A stretch of 64,000 nucleotides of DNA. Origin: Opitutaceae bacterium. GTDB lineage: Bacteria; Verrucomicrobiota; Verrucomicrobiia; Opitutales; Opitutaceae. The position numbers were made by a program, and so were the translations under genes. Location: NCBI GenBank assembly GCA_027490995.1, contig JAIXWY010000011.1, positions 496,001 through 560,000 on the forward strand, written 5' to 3'. This document shows, in pieces, positions 46,272 to 54,527 of this stretch. The notes under the pieces are model-generated. The model did no database searches, was not told the DNA's origin, and was given only the letters and a program-made list of their open reading frames with translations. Numbering within the stretch: position 1 is the first letter of the stretch; each line of letters opens with the position of its first letter.

Positions 46272-47105
46272 ATGCCTCCCGTCATCAACGTTTCCGCCTA
46301 CCGCTTCGTGCCCCTCGATGGACTCGAGACATGGCGAGACACCCTCCGCTCCCTCGCGGAAGGGTCGGACCTCCGCGGCACGATCCTGCTTGGCGTGGAG
46401 GGCATCAATCTCTTCGTGGCGGGTACGCGTGAAGGTATCGATACCTTCGTCGCCCAACTCCGAGCGCTGCCGCCCTTCGTCAATCTGGAGACCAAGGAGA
46501 GCCCGGGAACCCTGCGCCCCTTTCGCCGCCTGCAGGTCAAAATCAAGCGCGAGATCATCGCGTTCGGTGCCGCCGGCACCGATCCGGCGGTGCACCCGGC
46601 CCCGCGCATTTCGCCCGAGCAACTGCGCGCCTGGCTCGATGAAGGCGAAGACGTGGTCCTGCTCGACACCCGCAACGACTACGAGGTGCAGATCGGCTCG
46701 TTCCGGGGGGCCCAGCACCTTGGCCTGAGTCACTTTCGCGACTTTCCCAAGGCCGCCGCCAAGATACCCGACGCATGGCGCATGGCCAAAGTCGTAACGT
46801 TTTGCACCGGCGGGATCCGCTGCGAGAAGGCCGCTCCGTTTCTGCAGCAGGCTGGTTTCAGCAACGTCTACCAACTCGACGGCGGCATCCTCCGCTACTT
46901 TGAACGATGCGGCGGTGCTCATTACGAAGGCGAGTGCTTCGTCTTCGATGAGCGTGTCGGCGTCCAGCCCGACCTCACACCCAGCGGCGCAATCCTCTGC
47001 GATCGATGCCAGCGCCCCGTAACCTTACTGGAGCAAAAGGCGCCTGACTTCACGCCCGGTACCGGGTGCCGGAGTTGCCGCTCGGCGAAGGCCGAAGGGT
47101 TCTAG
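46272..47105 (+). CDS. trhO: Rhodanese-domain tRNA hydroxylase TrhO (YceA type)
   Basis: A 277-aa protein: an acylphosphatase-like N-terminal domain, then a rhodanese domain (VLLDTRNDYEVQIGSFRGA) with the active Cys in CTGGIRCEKAA, and a C-terminal four-Cys region (CDRC and CRSC) that may bind zinc. TrhO makes 5-hydroxyuridine at wobble U34 in some tRNAs. ATG 46272 (MPPVINVSAYRF) fits the family; the ORF is open to 46200, inside the helicase gene. Its stop shares the CTAG with the convergent Nramp-like gene stop. Confidence 0.85.
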   Translation: MPPVINVSAYRFVPLDGLETWRDTLRSLAEGSDLRGTILLGVEGINLFVAGTREGIDTFVAQLRALPPFVNLETKESPGTLRPFRRLQVKIKREIIAFGAAGTDPAVHPAPRISPEQLRAWLDEGEDVVLLDTRNDYEVQIGSFRGAQHLGLSHFRDFPKAAAKIPDAWRMAKVVTFCTGGIRCEKAAPFLQQAGFSNVYQLDGGILRYFERCGGAHYEGECFVFDERVGVQPDLTPSGAILCDRCQRPVTLLEQKAPDFTPGTGCRSCRSAKAEGF

Positions 47106-48466
47106 CGCAGCCAGCGCGAGACCTCCGCAAATACTTGGTAGCCTCCCAAGGCGGTCATTGCGGTCGCCGCCAGCAGCAGACAAACAAAAGAGAAGCGGCT
47201 CGCTCTGAGTTCGCGATACGGTGAGGTCAGGTGAAAGTAAACAGCCGCGACGGCGAGAAACGGCAGCATGAGTCCCTGCGCGATCGCTCCGAAGAAGACG
47301 AGCTGCACGGGATTTCCAAAGCTCAGAAACACGGTGGTGAAGATAGCCGGAAGTACCACGCAGCTCACCTTTACCCAGCGCACGCGTTCCTCGTTGTTCT
47401 TCGGACGGAATGGGGTGAAGAGCCCAGCCGCATCCACCACCAAACGAGCATTCGAAGCCGTCGCTCCGAAGATCGTCGAATACAGGACCGCAATCGCACC
47501 CACCACGAACATCCAAAGGCTCCATTCTCCAAAGGTCTCACGGTACATGATCGAGAGGACCTCGATCATGCGCTGGTTCTCGACCAACAAGCCCTTGGCA
47601 TGCAGCACCGCCGCACCCAAGAGGTAGAACGCCACGGTCGTCGTCGTGTAGAGCGCGAAGCACACCCAGGCGTCGATCCGCATCACCCGCAGCCAACCCT
47701 GCGCACGGCGGCGCCACTCCTCGGTGCCGTCATCCGGACCAACCTTCGCACCATAGCCCTTCTCCAAGCACCAATACGGATAGTAGATGAGCTCCGTAGC
47801 TCCGACGCCAATGATCCCAAAAGCGCCGAACGCCGTCGCAACGTCGGCCGGTAGCCCAAACGTGAAGCCACTGGCCAACTGTGCGCCGGTGACGGCGTAA
47901 GGGGTGGTCTGCAGCACCGCGACGGCGACCAAGGTTCCGACCGTGAAGATGCCCACCATCACCATCGAGGCCGTCTCCACCAATCGGTACCGCCCCACCA
48001 CCAGCAACAAGGCGCAACTCGCGCCGATGCCCACCGCCAACGTCGAGACCGGAATGTCAATTCCACCCAGCCGAAGCGCCGTCGCCGTTCCTCCAACCAT
48101 GCCTGCCACCTGGGGCATCACGCAGACAAACATCGCCAGCCAGAGCCAGAGCAACCACGACACCACCAGCCTCGGACCCGGCAGTGAGTTCATTGCGTGC
48201 AATAGGGTCTGCCCGCGCGTGATCGCGTAGCGTCCAAACTCGATCTGCACAAAAACCTTCACGAGGCAGCCCAGAATAATGAACCAGAGCAACCGGAAGC
48301 CCACCTCCGCCCCCAGCTTCGGCGTCACGATGAGTTCACCGGAGCCGACGATGATCGACGAGACAATCAAACCCGGTCCCAGTTGCCGCAGCAGCGGACG
48401 GAGGCGGGTCGGCGCCCATTCAGGCGCAGAGACAGACTGAGACACGGAGTCCGAAGGGGTATTCAT
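47102..48466 (-). CDS. Nramp-like metal transporter lacking the canonical metal motifs
   Basis: A 454-aa membrane protein of about 11 predicted helices with an Nramp-type layout. The TM1 DPGN is replaced by GSGE (IIVGSGELIVTPKLG) and the TM6 MPH motif is absent (GIIGVGATELIYYPYW). These residues coordinate Mn/Fe in classical Nramps, so the substrate may be different. It is the last gene downstream of a Ytg-like ABC operon and may be co-transcribed (72 nt gap). ATG 48466 is chosen over 48517. Confidence 0.8.
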   Translation of the reverse strand: MNTPSDSVSQSVSAPEWAPTRLRPLLRQLGPGLIVSSIIVGSGELIVTPKLGAEVGFRLLWFIILGCLVKVFVQIEFGRYAITRGQTLLHAMNSLPGPRLVVSWLLWLWLAMFVCVMPQVAGMVGGTATALRLGGIDIPVSTLAVGIGASCALLLVVGRYRLVETASMVMVGIFTVGTLVAVAVLQTTPYAVTGAQLASGFTFGLPADVATAFGAFGIIGVGATELIYYPYWCLEKGYGAKVGPDDGTEEWRRRAQGWLRVMRIDAWVCFALYTTTTVAFYLLGAAVLHAKGLLVENQRMIEVLSIMYRETFGEWSLWMFVVGAIAVLYSTIFGATASNARLVVDAAGLFTPFRPKNNEERVRWVKVSCVVLPAIFTTVFLSFGNPVQLVFFGAIAQGLMLPFLAVAAVYFHLTSPYRELRASRFSFVCLLLAATAMTALGGYQVFAEVSRWLR

Positions 48467-48538
48467 GCGGGGCAACCGGACTGGCGCAGGGCGCACGCCG
48501 AACCGGCGCCACGACACTCGCCCGAGACGCTCGCGGGC

Positions 48539-49489
48539 TCAAGACTGAACCCGGTTACGCTCCCACAGTTGGATGAGCAGTCCACCCCGCGGCCCCATCA
48601 GCCAAGCCGCCACAAAGAGCGCAGCGCCCGCCACCACGATCGCGGGCGCCAGCGAGCAATCCAACCACACCGCGAGGCCCACGCCGAGCCACACGCTCGC
48701 GCCCGCATGCACCACGGCAATGCCATGCATCCGTGGGAGCCGTTCCGTGATCAGGGTCGCTGTCGCTCCCGGCAGGATGAGCATCGCGACCACCAGCACC
48801 GCGCCCACCGCCTCGAACGCACTCACCACCACCAGCGAAAGCAGAAGCATGAGTCCCAGCCGTACCCCGCGCACATGGACGCCGGCGGAGCGGGCGATTC
48901 CGGGATCAAAGGAGCTAACCAGGAGAGCGCGGTATCCCACGACAATGACCGCGATGACCAACGCGAGCACCGATGCCATGCGGATGACCGCCGGCGGAGC
49001 CAAGGTCAAAGAGCCCACGGCCACCGACGGTTCCAAAGCGACGAATAACAACTCCCCATTGAGCACGCAGTCCGGATCCAGATCGATCTGACCGGCAAAG
49101 GCGACGGCTAGGACCACTCCAATTGCGAAGAGTGTCGAAAAAACGATGCCGATCGCAGCGTCCTGCTTCAGCGGCGTCCGCGACTGCAGCAAATCAATAA
49201 TCAACGTAGCCACAAGTCCGGCGACCAATGCGCCTGCGAACATTGGGCCCGTGCCGCGCCCTCCCGACACCAGAAACGCAATCACCAAACCCGGCAGCAC
49301 GCTGTGACTCACGGCGTCGCCCATCAGCGCCATCCGTCGCAGCAGCAGATAGTTCCCGAGAAGACCGCAAGCCGCCGCGACACAAAACCCCATGACACCG
49401 ACCCAGCCGAAGGTATCCCGATGCTCGGTCCATGGCGCGACCAGAGCTGCGTGCGCATCGAATGCCGGTAGCACCCATTCCGGAGTCAT
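48539..49489 (-). CDS. Metal ABC transporter permease (YtgD/ZnuB/MntC-type)
   Basis: A 316-aa integral membrane protein of the ABC-3 family (zinc/manganese/iron), with about nine hydrophobic helices and the family motif GDAVSHSVLPGLVIAFL in the N-terminal half. Its ATG start overlaps the stop of the upstream permease::DtxR gene by 4 nt, so the two permeases are made together as a heterodimer. It carries no DtxR domain. Confidence 0.9.
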   Translation of the reverse strand: MTPEWVLPAFDAHAALVAPWTEHRDTFGWVGVMGFCVAAACGLLGNYLLLRRMALMGDAVSHSVLPGLVIAFLVSGGRGTGPMFAGALVAGLVATLIIDLLQSRTPLKQDAAIGIVFSTLFAIGVVLAVAFAGQIDLDPDCVLNGELLFVALEPSVAVGSLTLAPPAVIRMASVLALVIAVIVVGYRALLVSSFDPGIARSAGVHVRGVRLGLMLLLSLVVVSAFEAVGAVLVVAMLILPGATATLITERLPRMHGIAVVHAGASVWLGVGLAVWLDCSLAPAIVVAGAALFVAAWLMGPRGGLLIQLWERNRVQS

Positions 49490-50964
49490 CGCAGACCTCC
49501 TCCCTCGAGCGGCGCCGGACGTTCGAGCTCGCTGCTGCTTGGGATGATCCGGCCATGCGGGTCCCAGCGCGCGTGATTCAGCCGCCGCTCGAGCTCCCGC
49601 ACCACCGCCTCCCCGAGCACGTGCTCGATATTTTCCGCGTGATCATGCACGTGGTCGGGCGCGAAGTTCGCCGACTGCGTTAAATAAAGCTCCCAGAGTC
49701 GGTGATTCCGGACGATCTCTCCGGCCCGTCGCCGTCCCTCCGGCGTGAAGTAGAGCACCTCTCGCTCCAAACGCGCCAAGCCATGAGATCGCAGTTCCAC
49801 GCCGAGCCGGCGCACCTCCTCCACCGTCTCCCGCCGCCTCGCCGCAAGTTCCTCCAGCGTGACTCCTGCGCGCGCAAAGCCGTCGACTTCCGCAACATGA
49901 TACATCGACTTTAGCGTGTTCTCGCGACGTGTCCGTCCCACTCCCACTCGCCGCCGCCAGAGGCGAATACACCAGCCCTCCCGCGGACCGAACAGCACCG
50001 CCACTCCGAACCACACACTCGCGGCGATCACGATGAGCGGGCCCGTCGGTAAAGCGGGTCCCAGAAAGGATAGAAATGCCCCCGCCAAGCCCGCCGCGCC
50101 TCCGAGCAAGGCCGAGTAAAGCAGCAACCGAGGCAGGCTCCGCGTGAGCAAATAGGCCGTGGCGGCCGGCGTGACCAACAGCGCGGAAACCAGCACGACA
50201 CCGACCGCCTGCAACGCGATGACCACCGCTGCGGCGAGGAGAAACATGAAAGCATGGTGCACCACCGCCGCCGGCAGGCCCTGCGACCGCGCAAACGCGG
50301 CATCAAACGCCACCGCCACCAGTTCCTTGTAGAGGGCGAGAACGAAGAGAATCACCACCGCCGCCACTACTGCCATCACGCGGATATCCTCCGGACCAAT
50401 CGTCGCAGCTTGGCCGAACAGGAAGTGCGAGAGCCCCGCCGACTGCGCGGAGGGCAGCCGCTGGATCAGCGACAGCAGGCATAGGCCCACCGCAAAAAAG
50501 GAGGCCAGCACCAAACCCAACGCCGCATCCTCCTTCAATCGCGTCGTGCGCGTGAGGGCGGAAACGAAGGCGGTTCCAATCAGGCCGGCAATCGTCGCAC
50601 CGACAAAGATGGCCACCGGATCTCGCGACATGTTCCACAGAAAACCCACTGCCACGCCCGGCAGCACCGCATGCGACAGCGCGTCGCCCACCAACGCCAT
50701 GCGCCGCACCACCATAAAGCCGCCCAGAAGGCCGCACGTCGTGCCCAACAGCAACGTCCCCCACACCACGTACCGCACCGCCGGATCCTCAAGACGCAGG
50801 AACCGCCACGCCTGCGCCATCTCCCCTCCAAGGGCTCCCGCCGTTCCCTGCGCCTGCACCCACGGAACCAGGAGGGCTGCCGCAGCGAGTACCGCCAGCC
50901 CGCGACCGATCACCAGGGCCCCGAAGCGGCGTCCGGAAAAACCGCCGCAAACAGTCCGATTCAC
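49486..50964 (-). CDS. Metal ABC permease fused to a DtxR/MntR-type metalloregulator (YtgCR-like)
   Basis: A 492-aa protein. Residues ~20-330 are an ABC-3 permease with the GDALSHAVLPGVAVGFL motif. A basic linker (RRRVGVGRTRRE) leads to a complete DtxR module: HTH at ~348-405 and metal/dimerisation domain at ~410-475. By alignment with B. subtilis MntR, the ligands H77, E99, E102 and H103 correspond to H421, E444, E447 and H448, but the N-terminal D8 and E11 positions are not conserved. The same architecture is known in chlamydial YtgCR, which is cleaved to release the repressor. It overlaps both neighbours by 4 nt. Confidence 0.93.
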   Translation of the reverse strand: MNRTVCGGFSGRRFGALVIGRGLAVLAAAALLVPWVQAQGTAGALGGEMAQAWRFLRLEDPAVRYVVWGTLLLGTTCGLLGGFMVVRRMALVGDALSHAVLPGVAVGFLWNMSRDPVAIFVGATIAGLIGTAFVSALTRTTRLKEDAALGLVLASFFAVGLCLLSLIQRLPSAQSAGLSHFLFGQAATIGPEDIRVMAVVAAVVILFVLALYKELVAVAFDAAFARSQGLPAAVVHHAFMFLLAAAVVIALQAVGVVLVSALLVTPAATAYLLTRSLPRLLLYSALLGGAAGLAGAFLSFLGPALPTGPLIVIAASVWFGVAVLFGPREGWCIRLWRRRVGVGRTRRENTLKSMYHVAEVDGFARAGVTLEELAARRRETVEEVRRLGVELRSHGLARLEREVLYFTPEGRRRAGEIVRNHRLWELYLTQSANFAPDHVHDHAENIEHVLGEAVVRELERRLNHARWDPHGRIIPSSSELERPAPLEGGGLR

Positions 50965-51818
50965 CGCGAGCCCCCCTGCGCGCCCAAAGCCTGCGCCACT
51001 TCACTGAGCAAGGTCAGGCGCCCACCATAGGTGCGCTGCAACAAGTCGGCCGTGAACACCTCGGCCGTGGGACCAAACGCGACGACGTTGAGGTTGAGCA
51101 GGAGCAAGCGGTCGAAGTACTGACGCGCCGTGGGAAGATCGTGGTGCACGACGAAGAGCGTGCATCCACGGTCGCGCAGCGTTCGTAGCACCACCACAAT
51201 GGACGCCTCCGTCGCGGCATCCACGCCCGCAAAGGGCTCGTCCATGAAATACACCTCGGCCTCTTGCGCCAACGCGCGCGCCAGGAAGACGCGCTGCTGC
51301 TGACCGCCCGAAAGATTGCTGATCTGTCGGTCCGCATACGGTAGCAGCTGAACCTGCTCCAAGCAGGCCCGCGCGACCTCACGGTCCGCCCGCGAGGGAC
51401 GGCGAAAGAGTCCAATGCGGCCGTACCGGCCCATGAGCACGACGTCCATCACGCTCACCGGAAAATCCCAATCCACCGTCTCTCGCTGGGGCACATAACC
51501 GACCCGCGAACACACCTCGGCAAAGGGACGTCCCCAGAAACGAACCCAACCACCCTGCACCGGTGTCAACCCCATGCAGGCCTTGATGAGCGTCGATTTA
51601 CCCGCGCCGTTGGGACCGATGATCCCCACCAACTGTCCAGGCCCCACGGCGAGGTCCACGCCCCACAGCACCGGCTTGCGGCGATACGCCACCGTCAGGT
51701 CGTGGATCTCCAGGACCGGAGGAATCGCGGGAGTCGAAAGCGACGAAGGCAAAGAAGTCACGGGAAGATCGGAGACGAGATGCGCTTCATCGCAGCGCCG
51801 AGACCAGCGTACGAACAT
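50961..51818 (-). CDS. Metal ABC transporter ATP-binding protein (YtgB/ZnuC/MntB-type)
   Basis: A 285-aa ABC ATPase: Walker A GPNGAGKST, Q-loop (VPQRETVDWDFPV is typical of metal transporters), signature LSGGQQQR, Walker B VYFMDEPFAG and switch His VVHHDL. It energises import through the two adjacent permeases. ATG 51818 is used; it overlaps the binding-protein stop by about 30 nt. A GTG at 51761 is the alternative. Its end overlaps the permease::DtxR start (ATGA). Confidence 0.93.
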   Translation of the reverse strand: MFVRWSRRCDEAHLVSDLPVTSLPSSLSTPAIPPVLEIHDLTVAYRRKPVLWGVDLAVGPGQLVGIIGPNGAGKSTLIKACMGLTPVQGGWVRFWGRPFAEVCSRVGYVPQRETVDWDFPVSVMDVVLMGRYGRIGLFRRPSRADREVARACLEQVQLLPYADRQISNLSGGQQQRVFLARALAQEAEVYFMDEPFAGVDAATEASIVVVLRTLRDRGCTLFVVHHDLPTARQYFDRLLLLNLNVVAFGPTAEVFTADLLQRTYGGRLTLLSEVAQALGAQGGSR

Positions 51819-52710
51819 TATGCCGCACCATCCCCTCGTAGGTGCTAGGATCAGTGCCGTCGGCGGCAAGTCCCGGCGCACCCAGCGAGTCGGAATACAA
51901 CTCCCCCCCCACTCGCACCCCGGCATCCGCCGCAACACGCTGGATGGCTTTAGGTGAGACTGACGACTCGACAAAGATGGCCGGGATCCGACGCCGAGCC
52001 AGCAACTGCGTTAGCTCTGTCATCGCCGACAACGCGGCTTCCCCAACCGTCGAGATGCCCTGCAGTCCAATGACCTCAAAGTCATACGCACGGCCAAAAT
52101 AGCCGAAGGCATCGTGGCTGGTTACCAGCACCCGTCGCTCCTTCGGAATCACCGCAAGCTCGCGCCGCACCCATTCATCCAGAGCGACCAAGCGCGCCCG
52201 CAACGCCTCCCCTCGGGCTTGATAAGTCTCGGTACCCGCAGGATCGGCGCGGACGAGCGCTGCCACCACCGTGCTGATGCATTCCCGCCATAGTCCCACC
52301 TCAAACCACACGTGAGGATCATAGGCGCCTTCCCCTTCGCCGACGCGGCGCAACCGCGTCACCGGCAAGTCCGAGGTGATCGCCACCACCTGGGCGCGGC
52401 GCGACCGCAGGCGCTGGAGGACGTTCTCCATGCGCCCCTCCAGATGGAGACCATGAAAGGCCACCACGTCCGCGTCCTGCAGCGCGCGCAGATCCGACGG
52501 AGTCGGCTGGTAAGAATGCGGATCCACCCCCGGCCCCATGAGCGACTTCACGCTCACTCGAGTGCCTCCAATCTCGCGCACCAAATCAGCGACCAACGAA
52601 GTCGTCGCCACCACTCGCACCACCGCGTCGGCCCGGAGCGAAGAGCCCCCCGCCACGACCATCAGCAGAACACCCAGCAGGACCGACGGGACTGAACCCA
52701 GCGAAGTCAT
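51787..52710 (-). CDS. Metal ABC transporter substrate-binding protein (YtgA/ZnuA/MntA-type)
   Basis: A 307-aa cluster A-I metal-binding protein. A signal peptide (VPSVLLGVLLMVVAGGSSLRADA) is followed by the ligand regions: DPHSYQP (His), DPHVWFE (His), FVESSVSP (Glu) and SDSLGAP (Asp). This His/His/Glu/Asp set is the Mn/Fe(II) pattern, and the His-rich loop of zinc-specific ZnuA is missing. ATG 52710 has a GGGG upstream; TTG 52749 would begin inside the operator. It is the first gene of a four- or five-gene operon behind a DtxR-type operator. Confidence 0.9.
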   Translation of the reverse strand: MTSLGSVPSVLLGVLLMVVAGGSSLRADAVVRVVATTSLVADLVREIGGTRVSVKSLMGPGVDPHSYQPTPSDLRALQDADVVAFHGLHLEGRMENVLQRLRSRRAQVVAITSDLPVTRLRRVGEGEGAYDPHVWFEVGLWRECISTVVAALVRADPAGTETYQARGEALRARLVALDEWVRRELAVIPKERRVLVTSHDAFGYFGRAYDFEVIGLQGISTVGEAALSAMTELTQLLARRRIPAIFVESSVSPKAIQRVAADAGVRVGGELYSDSLGAPGLAADGTDPSTYEGMVRHNVRTLVSALR

Positions 52711-52749: not shown

Positions 52750-52768
52750 AAAGATTAGCCTAACCTAA
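52750..52768. promoter_or_regulatory. DtxR-type metal-responsive operator
   Basis: AAAGATTAGCCTAACCTAA agrees with the DtxR/IdeR box TTAGGTTAGCCTAACCTAA at 16 of 19 positions. Its central 15 bp are an inverted repeat (AGATTAG-C-CTAACCT) with one mismatch. It lies 40 bp upstream of the metal-binding protein ATG (minus) and 65 bp upstream of the divergent iron-type permease ATG (plus). The permease::DtxR fusion in the first operon is the likely binder. Confidence 0.78.
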
Positions 52769-52832
52769 TTTGTGACGGGGCCACGCTACTCCGACCTTGC
52801 CGCCGTTCCGCGGCATGCGAGACTCCCGCGCC

Positions 52833-54527
52833 ATGTCGCAGTCCTTCGCTCGTGCGGTCTTCGCGCTGACCGCGGTGTTCTTCGCCGCGTTCTTCGTGTG
52901 GCCGATCTTTCAGATCGTCAAAGGCGGTTTCATGGACGCGGACGGACGACTGACGTTAGTCTATGTCACGACGCTGCTGGCGGACCCGGTCTATCAAGAG
53001 GGTCTGCTGAACTCGTTTCTTCTGACGTCCGCGACGACCAGCCTGGCTCTCCTGATCGCGGTGCCGTTGGCTCTCGTCGCAGACCGTTACGCGTTCCCGG
53101 GCAAGACGCTACTCACCTCGGTGATTCTGGTCCCCATGCTCTTGCCGCCGTTCGTGGGCGCGATCGGCATCAAGCAGATTTTTGGCCAGTACGGCGCATT
53201 CAACTCCCTGCTGATTGCGCTGGGAGTTCGCCCCGAGGGGTGGACCTTCGACTGGTTCGCGCTGCATCAGTTCTGGGGCATCGCGATCGTCAACGCGCTC
53301 TCCCTCTATCCGATCATCTACCTCAATGCCGTCGCTGCCCTGGCGAACATCGACCCCGCCATGGAGGAGGCGGCATCGAACCTCGGCTGCACCGGATTCC
53401 GCCGCTTCCGGCGCATCACGCTGCCGCTCATGCGATCCGGATTGTTCGCCGGTGGCACCATCGTTTTCATCTGGGCCTTCACGGAACTGGGCACGCCCTT
53501 GGTCTTCGACTATCCCCGGGTAACCAGTGTCCAAATCTTCTACGGATTGAAGGACATTGGCGCTAATCCCTTCCCCTATGCGTTGGTGGCGATCATGCTC
53601 GTCGCAACGACGTCACTCTACGCGATCGGCAAAGGACTATTCGGACGGCAGAGCTACGCCATGATGGCCAAGGCCACCGCCGGGGGCGGTCCGCGTCGGC
53701 TTCCCCTGGGACGCGGGCTCCTCTGCACCGCCGCGTTCGGCGGGGTGTTCTTCCTCGCGGTACTCCCTCACCTCGGCGTGCTGCTCGTCGCGTTTTCCAA
53801 CGATTGGCACGCGACGATTGTTCCGGACTCGCTGACGCTGGACAACTTCAAGCTCGCCCTCGGGCACGATCTCACCGTCTCAGCGATCGCCAACAGCCTC
53901 CGGTTCGCCAGCATCTCGACGGTGGTGGACCTGATCCTCGGCGTGGCCATCGCCTATGTGGTCGTGCGCTCGCGCGTACCGGGGCGGCAGGTGCTGGACT
54001 TTCTCGCGATGCTGCCCCTCGCCGTGCCCGGGCTCGTCCTGGCGTTCGGCTACCTCGCGATGTCTCAGGACGGAAAGTTTTTCGAGTTTCTTAACCCCAC
54101 GCGCGATCCAACCATCCTGCTCATCATCGCTTACTCGGTGCGGCGGCTTCCGTACGTCGTCCGCTCGGCGGCGGCCGGATTCCAGCAAACCAGCGAGACG
54201 TTGGAAGAAGCCGCGCAGAATCTCGGCAGCCCTCCGCTGAAGGCCATGATCCGAGTGACGCTTCCGCTGATCACCGCGAACCTGATTGCCGGCGGCCTGC
54301 TCGCGTTCTCGTTTGCGATGCTGGAGGTCAGCGACTCGTTGATCCTTGCGCAGAAACAGGCGTATTACCCGATCACGAAAGCCATCCTCGAACTGTTCCA
54401 GTTGCTCGGTGACGGCAAATTCATCGCGAGCGCGCTCGGCGTGTGGGCCATGCTCTTCCTCGGCGTGACGATTGTCGGCCTGAGCCTCCTGCTCGGCAAG
54501 CGGCTGGGAGCAATCTTCCGCGTTTAA
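52833..54527 (+). CDS. Double-domain iron(III)-type ABC permease (FbpB/AfuB-like)
   Basis: A 564-aa protein made of two homologous permease halves, each with about six helices and an EAA loop: EEAASNLGCTGFRRFRRITLPL near residue 180 and EEAAQNLGSPPLKAMIRVTLPL near 460. This fused form is usual for ferric-binding-protein-dependent (FbpABC) transporters. No ATPase or binding protein gene is next to it. ATG 52833 is selected; ATGs at 52797 and 52815 are alternatives. The DtxR box in front supports an iron role. Confidence 0.85.
   Translation: MSQSFARAVFALTAVFFAAFFVWPIFQIVKGGFMDADGRLTLVYVTTLLADPVYQEGLLNSFLLTSATTSLALLIAVPLALVADRYAFPGKTLLTSVILVPMLLPPFVGAIGIKQIFGQYGAFNSLLIALGVRPEGWTFDWFALHQFWGIAIVNALSLYPIIYLNAVAALANIDPAMEEAASNLGCTGFRRFRRITLPLMRSGLFAGGTIVFIWAFTELGTPLVFDYPRVTSVQIFYGLKDIGANPFPYALVAIMLVATTSLYAIGKGLFGRQSYAMMAKATAGGGPRRLPLGRGLLCTAAFGGVFFLAVLPHLGVLLVAFSNDWHATIVPDSLTLDNFKLALGHDLTVSAIANSLRFASISTVVDLILGVAIAYVVVRSRVPGRQVLDFLAMLPLAVPGLVLAFGYLAMSQDGKFFEFLNPTRDPTILLIIAYSVRRLPYVVRSAAAGFQQTSETLEEAAQNLGSPPLKAMIRVTLPLITANLIAGGLLAFSFAMLEVSDSLILAQKQAYYPITKAILELFQLLGDGKFIASALGVWAMLFLGVTIVGLSLLLGKRLGAIFRV

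Follow-up and report, generated by a model that had tools for sequence, protein, structure and literature searches.

Can a DtxR-type repressor domain that forms part of a metal importer control transcription of the importer's own genes? The question is raised by an operon on the minus strand of a 64,000-nucleotide stretch of DNA from an Opitutaceae bacterium (the window, whose positions serve as coordinates throughout), in which a permease of the ABC-3 family continues into a DtxR-type domain. The gene order proposed in the initial annotation, namely solute-binding protein (SBP), ATPase, permease::DtxR fusion and second permease, was found as stated by open reading frames and Pfam matches. Chlamydial YtgCR (CT069) likewise carries a C-terminal DtxR-type domain on a permease of a ytgABCD-type operon, and cleavage of YtgR and its binding to the ytg promoter in the presence of Fe2+ (or Zn2+) have been reported (PMC5599777, PMC7755916). 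Computation shows this architecture and how well it is conserved, where the metal ligands lie, and that operators covary with regulators, as described below. At the level of sequence, these observations suggest that a separate protein, not the fused piece, controls transcription of the importer genes. We lean towards a reading in which MntR reads the operator and the fused DtxR-type domain is a metal sensor that probably slows the importer at high cytosolic metal levels.

The operator and the regulator that reads it

An operator had been proposed at 52750-52768. The site is real and extends to 52773; it is a member of the refined motif and the sole exact match to AWTTAGN6CTAANNTTT in the source genome. 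The motif, refined on 63 dereplicated SBP promoters, is aAAAgTTAGcCnnGgCTAAcTTTt, and the window site scores 25.3 bits. Scored with a matrix trained on these same promoters, 53 of the 63 surpass 9.8 bits, the 99% level for mononucleotide shuffles; for two of the 63 (L029 and L106), the stretch examined does not show the fusion itself. A TTGAC starts 3 or 4 nucleotides after the operator in 20 of 50 operons; as background, any TTGAC occurs in 2 of 200 stretches of 40 nucleotides.

The source genome (3.47 Mb in 15 contigs, 94.67% complete) has three ABC-3 genes. PF02742 matches two of its genes: one is the fusion, and the other encodes a stand-alone protein of 158 amino acids on the same contig as the operon but elsewhere (C14:1291140). 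The latter is a plain MntR, with structure matches to PDB entries 6kta (E 3.1e-32) and 1on1 (E 3.4e-32). We searched for PF02742 in 60 genome handles, comprising the genomes of 56 of 80 named loci (the best 80 of 549 relatives) and four genomes of the same family; since G123 equals G418, these are 59 genomes. Besides the fusion, 51 encode a short MntR-type protein and one a DtxR-FeoA protein, and no stand-alone regulator was seen in the remaining seven.

Distances between operators were compared with distances between recognition helices in 50 operons for which a site as well as a regulator is available (48 MntR-type and two DtxR-FeoA); L132, in which no site was found, and L179 and L074, whose sites are unclear, were excluded. 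In Mantel-type permutation tests, which leave shared ancestry partly in, operator distance follows the stand-alone recognition helix (r=0.610, p=0.0005; regression beta 0.685) but does not follow that of the fused domain (r=0.086, p=0.16; beta -0.07); the permease gives r=0.210 (p=0.027). The 31-residue fused helix-turn-helix (HTH) reaches r=0.223 (p=0.008) by itself, and beta 0.018 (p=0.44) when MntR and permease are included. Nine of the 50 sites were picked by eye: the 41 other rows give beta values of 0.426 (regulator) and -0.114 (fused HTH), and matrix-picked sites for all 50 give 0.633 and 0.015. Four genomes (L145, L146, L156 and L187) have two short regulators each, of which one was used; their removal (46 left) gives r 0.619 for the regulator versus 0.099 for the fused helix, and beta 0.697 versus -0.086. 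A site-blind control, in which the most palindromic 24-mer was taken, agrees with our sites in 32 of 50 operons and is weaker but points in the same direction (regulator r=0.125, p=0.078, beta 0.24, p=0.011; fused helix r=0.021, p=0.39, beta 0.097, p=0.15).

The same covariation can be followed in individual sequences. MntR proteins with G[QK]PSVTS pair with a GTTC[GA] half-site facing CAAAC in four of four rows, and those with [TS]HVTV pair with TGTAGC in all four retained rows, the fifth being L132, which had been dropped for its lack of a site. The fused helix has RRET in all eight of these rows. This helix had at first been favoured as the operator reader, since the operators of NSNLPATE-type lineages differ, and was dropped after the stand-alone regulators had been compared.

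A natural control is offered by ten genomes of the same family in which the single PF02742 match is a short protein and the fusion is lacking. The operator pattern, searched with up to two mismatches, occurs in two of them (G097 and G130, two mismatches each); the reversed control pattern matched one other genome, G028, four times. In G097 the operator stands in front of an importer operon that lacks the fusion, with the order SBP-barrel-ATPase-permease-permease. In G130 it has on one side a barrel gene, behind which comes an Nramp gene (PF01566, E 1.9e-59), and on the other an ortholog of the gene starting at window position 52797. The sole PF02742 protein found in each of these two genomes (L306, L307) is of the MntR type.

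These results bear directly on a YtgCR-like reading, suggested by the initial annotation, in which the fused domain, proteolytically released or tethered, represses its own operon when metal-bound. In favour of a YtgCR-like repressor are the gene order and fusion shared with ytgABCD as described (PMC5599777, PMC7755916), the full DtxR fold with its metal ligands, and the conserved operator. The seven genomes in which the fusion has no visible stand-alone partner also belong here, and they weigh against our assignment of the operator to MntR. However, the operator tracks the stand-alone helix and is kept in genomes without the fusion, an MntR-type protein is present in 51 of 59 genomes, and the DNA-binding profile PF01325 is rarely recognised in the fused domains (see below). 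On this evidence the fused domain does not appear to read its own promoter, and we consider self-repression unlikely.

A DtxR fold held on the permease

The fused repressor had been called complete, and this holds for its fold. In an AlphaFold2 model (m93f658749bd0; residues 45-492, 88-row alignment; pLDDT 92, pTM 0.84), which replaced a poor earlier model from 24 rows (pLDDT 67), the domain has the full two-domain DtxR fold, with a winged helix and a metal-dimerisation half. It does not hold for the profile of the N-terminal DNA-binding half, PF01325, which has no match in the window fusion protein and matches 2 of 24 fused domains (fusions of the family, E <= 0.1) versus 24 of 24 stand-alone MntR proteins picked from those fetched. 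A junction helix (residues 331-360; model helix 287-316; pLDDT 94-96) runs unbroken from the end of the permease into DtxR helix 1. The fold and the metal half are shared with the DtxR-family repressors DR2539, DtxR, IdeR and SloR; unlike these, the window domain is fused to a permease and belongs to a group in which the DNA-binding profile is seldom detected.

The metal ligands are kept, including those listed in the initial annotation (H421, E444, E447 and H448): in 88 of 88 aligned fusions H421, E425, E447 and H448 are invariant, H438 is present in 84, position 440 is H in 77 and D in 11, and an acidic residue occupies position 444 (E in 73, D in 15). The replacement of the MntR residues D8 and E11 was likewise seen in the fusion, but is not peculiar to it. 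Among the matches listed, helix 1 of the phylum's stand-alone DtxR-FeoA proteins reads E-N-x-L-K or E-D-x-L/I-K, so that K at the E11 place is common to them and N at the D8 place frequent in them. Because these stand-alone proteins partly share the loss, we rejected it as a sign of lost metal sensing.

Over 48 genomes, mean identity is 0.46 for the fused HTH, 0.76 for the fused metal half and 0.67 for the permease; for MntR in the same genomes it is 0.59 in the HTH and 0.49 in the metal part. An alternative to be weighed here is that the fused domain still binds DNA, at other sites or by helping MntR at the operator, as a second, membrane-bound regulator. Its winged helix is intact in the model, and an RRRET-like motif is conserved in its recognition-helix region within the focal clade. 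Yet conservation is lower in the DNA-binding half than in the metal half and the source genome has no second exact operator, which makes such a regulator improbable in our view. An acidic recognition helix was set aside as proof against DNA binding, because the same segment also holds RRR. In this region, 81 of 88 fusions have Arg at residue 377 (49834-49836), a possible point of contact with the ATPase or the permease.

In the mechanism that we propose, the stand-alone MntR would bind the palindrome upstream of the SBP gene and control the operon in trans, and in some lineages a DtxR-FeoA protein would take its place as transcription regulator. The fused domain would sense metal in the cytosol, tethered to the permease through the continuous helix. 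When cytosolic metal is high, its metal-loaded form would most likely lower transport, a form of substrate feedback. We infer both the binding of metal by the fused domain and its allosteric action on the transporter. The domain keeps the metal-sensing residues and a continuous link to the permease, and the simplest role would be feedback on transport, as known for the trans-inhibited importers MetNI and ModBC (PMC10710835). Alternatively, the domain could receive the ion from the permease, as a metal acceptor or relay, or could act as a scaffold, in either case with no feedback control: the metal half is the most conserved part compared, and the helix to the permease is continuous. However, the whole two-domain repressor fold is kept, which would be needless for a simple acceptor, and we hold such a role to be doubtful.

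Distribution of single and double fusions

A frame error or assembly artefact is ruled out by the intact, single-frame fusion in 23 stretches from relatives of the same family and in 78 of the 80 named loci. A PF02742 protein of some kind occurs in 136 of 150 genomes of the family. Forty stretches of the family, taken around long or middle-sized open frames, comprise 23 with the fusion in one frame, one (L041) cut by the contig end and 16 with other PF02742 proteins; the length of an open frame alone is no marker of the fusion, as the 413-residue frame of L055 is a different protein. The profile of the fused domain matches 93 of 288 genomes of the phylum at E <= 1e-6, stand-alone proteins being counted in.

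In L126 and L172, the two named loci without a single-frame fusion, the sequence begins at the end of a contig. The full order SBP-ATPase-fusion-permease is present in 56 of the 80 within the stretch examined. Among these best 80 of 549, the nearest named relative (95% over 112 residues) comes from an uncultured Opitutaceae bacterium, which bears out the verrucomicrobial host presumed in the initial annotation, and the record titles name Opitutaceae, Pedosphaera, Chthoniobacterales, Verrucomicrobiales, Akkermansia, Rubritalea and others. One record titled Klebsiella pneumoniae (L153, CALQJI020000132.1) has a verrucomicrobial-type fusion operon; its bin is probably mislabelled. Inspection by eye of the alignment of fusions gave no conserved internal start codon before the DtxR part. 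The gap between the SBP and ATPase genes exceeds 500 bp in 43 of 76 operons. Its content was read in three of them, where an outer-membrane barrel-like gene lies between the two (L108:3404-4249, PF13557; L125:3351-4232; L186:3107-4051), possibly an outer-membrane metal channel.

Eight further stretches were drawn, seven (L311-L317) for at least two profile matches and L318 for one. In all seven of the former, both permeases are fused to a DtxR-type domain. Each of these stretches also encodes a stand-alone DtxR-type regulator no more than 2.5 kb from the SBP gene, directly adjoining it in five (L311, L312, L313, L314 and L316) and at 1.4 and 2.4 kb in L315 and L317. In a tree of 63 rows (fused domains 16 of 105, 14 of 18 and 9 of 15; DtxR-FeoA 14 of 54; MntR 10 of 59), a branch with support 100/99 splits all 39 fused domains from all 24 stand-alone ones; the tree is unrooted, and the program flagged long branches, L084 above all. 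Separately, seven loci (L055, L056, L057, L063, L064, L065 and L069) hold frames of about 320-410 residues with Fe_dep_repr_C and two FeoA stretches and no PF01325 match, and in several of them this protein adjoins a normal DtxR-FeoA gene. These proteins may represent another side branch of the DtxR family in which no DNA-binding half is recognised.

The importer and its relation to known systems

Within the operon, there are 4-nucleotide overlaps between ATPase and fusion and between fusion and second permease (Table 1). The best NCBIfam matches are AztC/MntC for the SBP and MntA for the ATPase, all under the cut-offs. The permeases have the PsaBC fold and the genome encodes MntR, which points to a Mn(II)-type ABC importer, PsaBC/MntBC-like, that presumably transports Mn(II). 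Mn is also the likely metal because the MntR ligand positions, six residues that we take to be metal-binding, are the same in all 24 of the stand-alone MntR proteins compared.

Table 1. Positions of the importer genes, the parts of the fusion protein and the operator in the window
Feature	Position	Strand	Basis and remarks
SBP, ZnuA type	51787-52710	-	PF01297, E 3.9e-78; ATG at 52710, open reading frame to 52749
ABC ATPase	50961-51740	-	PF00005 (ABC_tran), E 4.1e-26; start at 51740 provisional, open reading frame runs to 51974
Fusion protein, ABC-3 permease and DtxR-type domain, 492 amino acids	49486-50964	-	Pfam
Permease part, residues 63-325	49990-50778	-	ABC-3, E 1.8e-67
Junction helix, residues 331-360	49885-49974	-	AlphaFold2 model
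Winged-helix half of fused domain, residues 348-406	49747-49923	-	
Recognition-helix region of fused domain, residues 375-387	49804-49842	-	
Metal-binding/dimerisation half, residues 407-475	49540-49746	-	PF02742 (Fe_dep_repr_C), E 2.8e-21; H421, E425, H438, H440, E444, E447, H448
Second permease, without DtxR domain	48539-49489	-	PF00950 (ABC-3), E 2.4e-49
Operator, imperfect palindrome ACAAATTAGGTTAGGCTAATCTTT	52750-52773	-	About 40 bp upstream of the SBP ATG; motif member

Divergent from the operon across the operator lies a gene for an ABC permease with two BPD_transp_1 stretches (52797-54527, plus strand), and the gene downstream of it we take to be an EamA-type exporter rather than a partner. 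Orthologs of the 52797 gene lie next to the operator in G130 and next to the importer in G097. Downstream of the operon, 47102-48517 (minus strand) encodes an Nramp-like transporter, by a distant match (PF01566, E 5.3e-18).

To our knowledge, the manganese importers with stand-alone regulators, MntABC, PsaABC and troABCDR, have no DtxR domain on the permease, and the regulatory domain of the trans-inhibited importers MetNI and ModBC is not DtxR-like. The latter two likewise carry a ligand-binding regulatory domain on the transporter, on the ATPase there and on the permease in the window, as described in a review in which the term DtxR has 0 occurrences (PMC10710835). In the window fusion, a candidate regulatory domain and its ligand positions are present on the transporter, and binding of the substrate is predicted.

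For permease-repressor fusions, we know of one experimental case, chlamydial YtgCR, and the titles and abstract openings examined gave no such fusion outside Chlamydia. Unlike YtgCR, the window fusion is accompanied by a stand-alone MntR that fits the operator. No chlamydial relatives of the fusion were found in the best 80 of 549 genome-contig relatives, three plasmid matches or the viral contigs, which yielded no relative at all, and the putative relation to YtgCR rests on architecture. The YtgCR cleavage fragment is reported to be 28-30 kDa in size (PMC5599777, PMC7755916), versus an estimated 17 kDa or so for about 150 residues; the YtgCR-type cut would therefore fall inside the permease, and the continuous junction helix seen here is thus no argument against cleavage.

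The architecture of YtgCR is now found to be widespread in another phylum, where the fused piece seemingly is not the repressor of the operon. More tentatively than for the mechanism itself, we suggest that the fused DtxR-type domain might be an ancient, dedicated feedback valve in Verrucomicrobiota, carried on one or on both permeases (where the domains would possibly dimerise under the pump), with transcription left to a separate MntR or DtxR. YtgR might then be a special case that kept or regained DNA binding, perhaps after losing the separate regulator. If this is true, such a valve would represent a novel type of feedback control among metal ABC importers and would suggest what YtgCR did before it came to be studied as a repressor.

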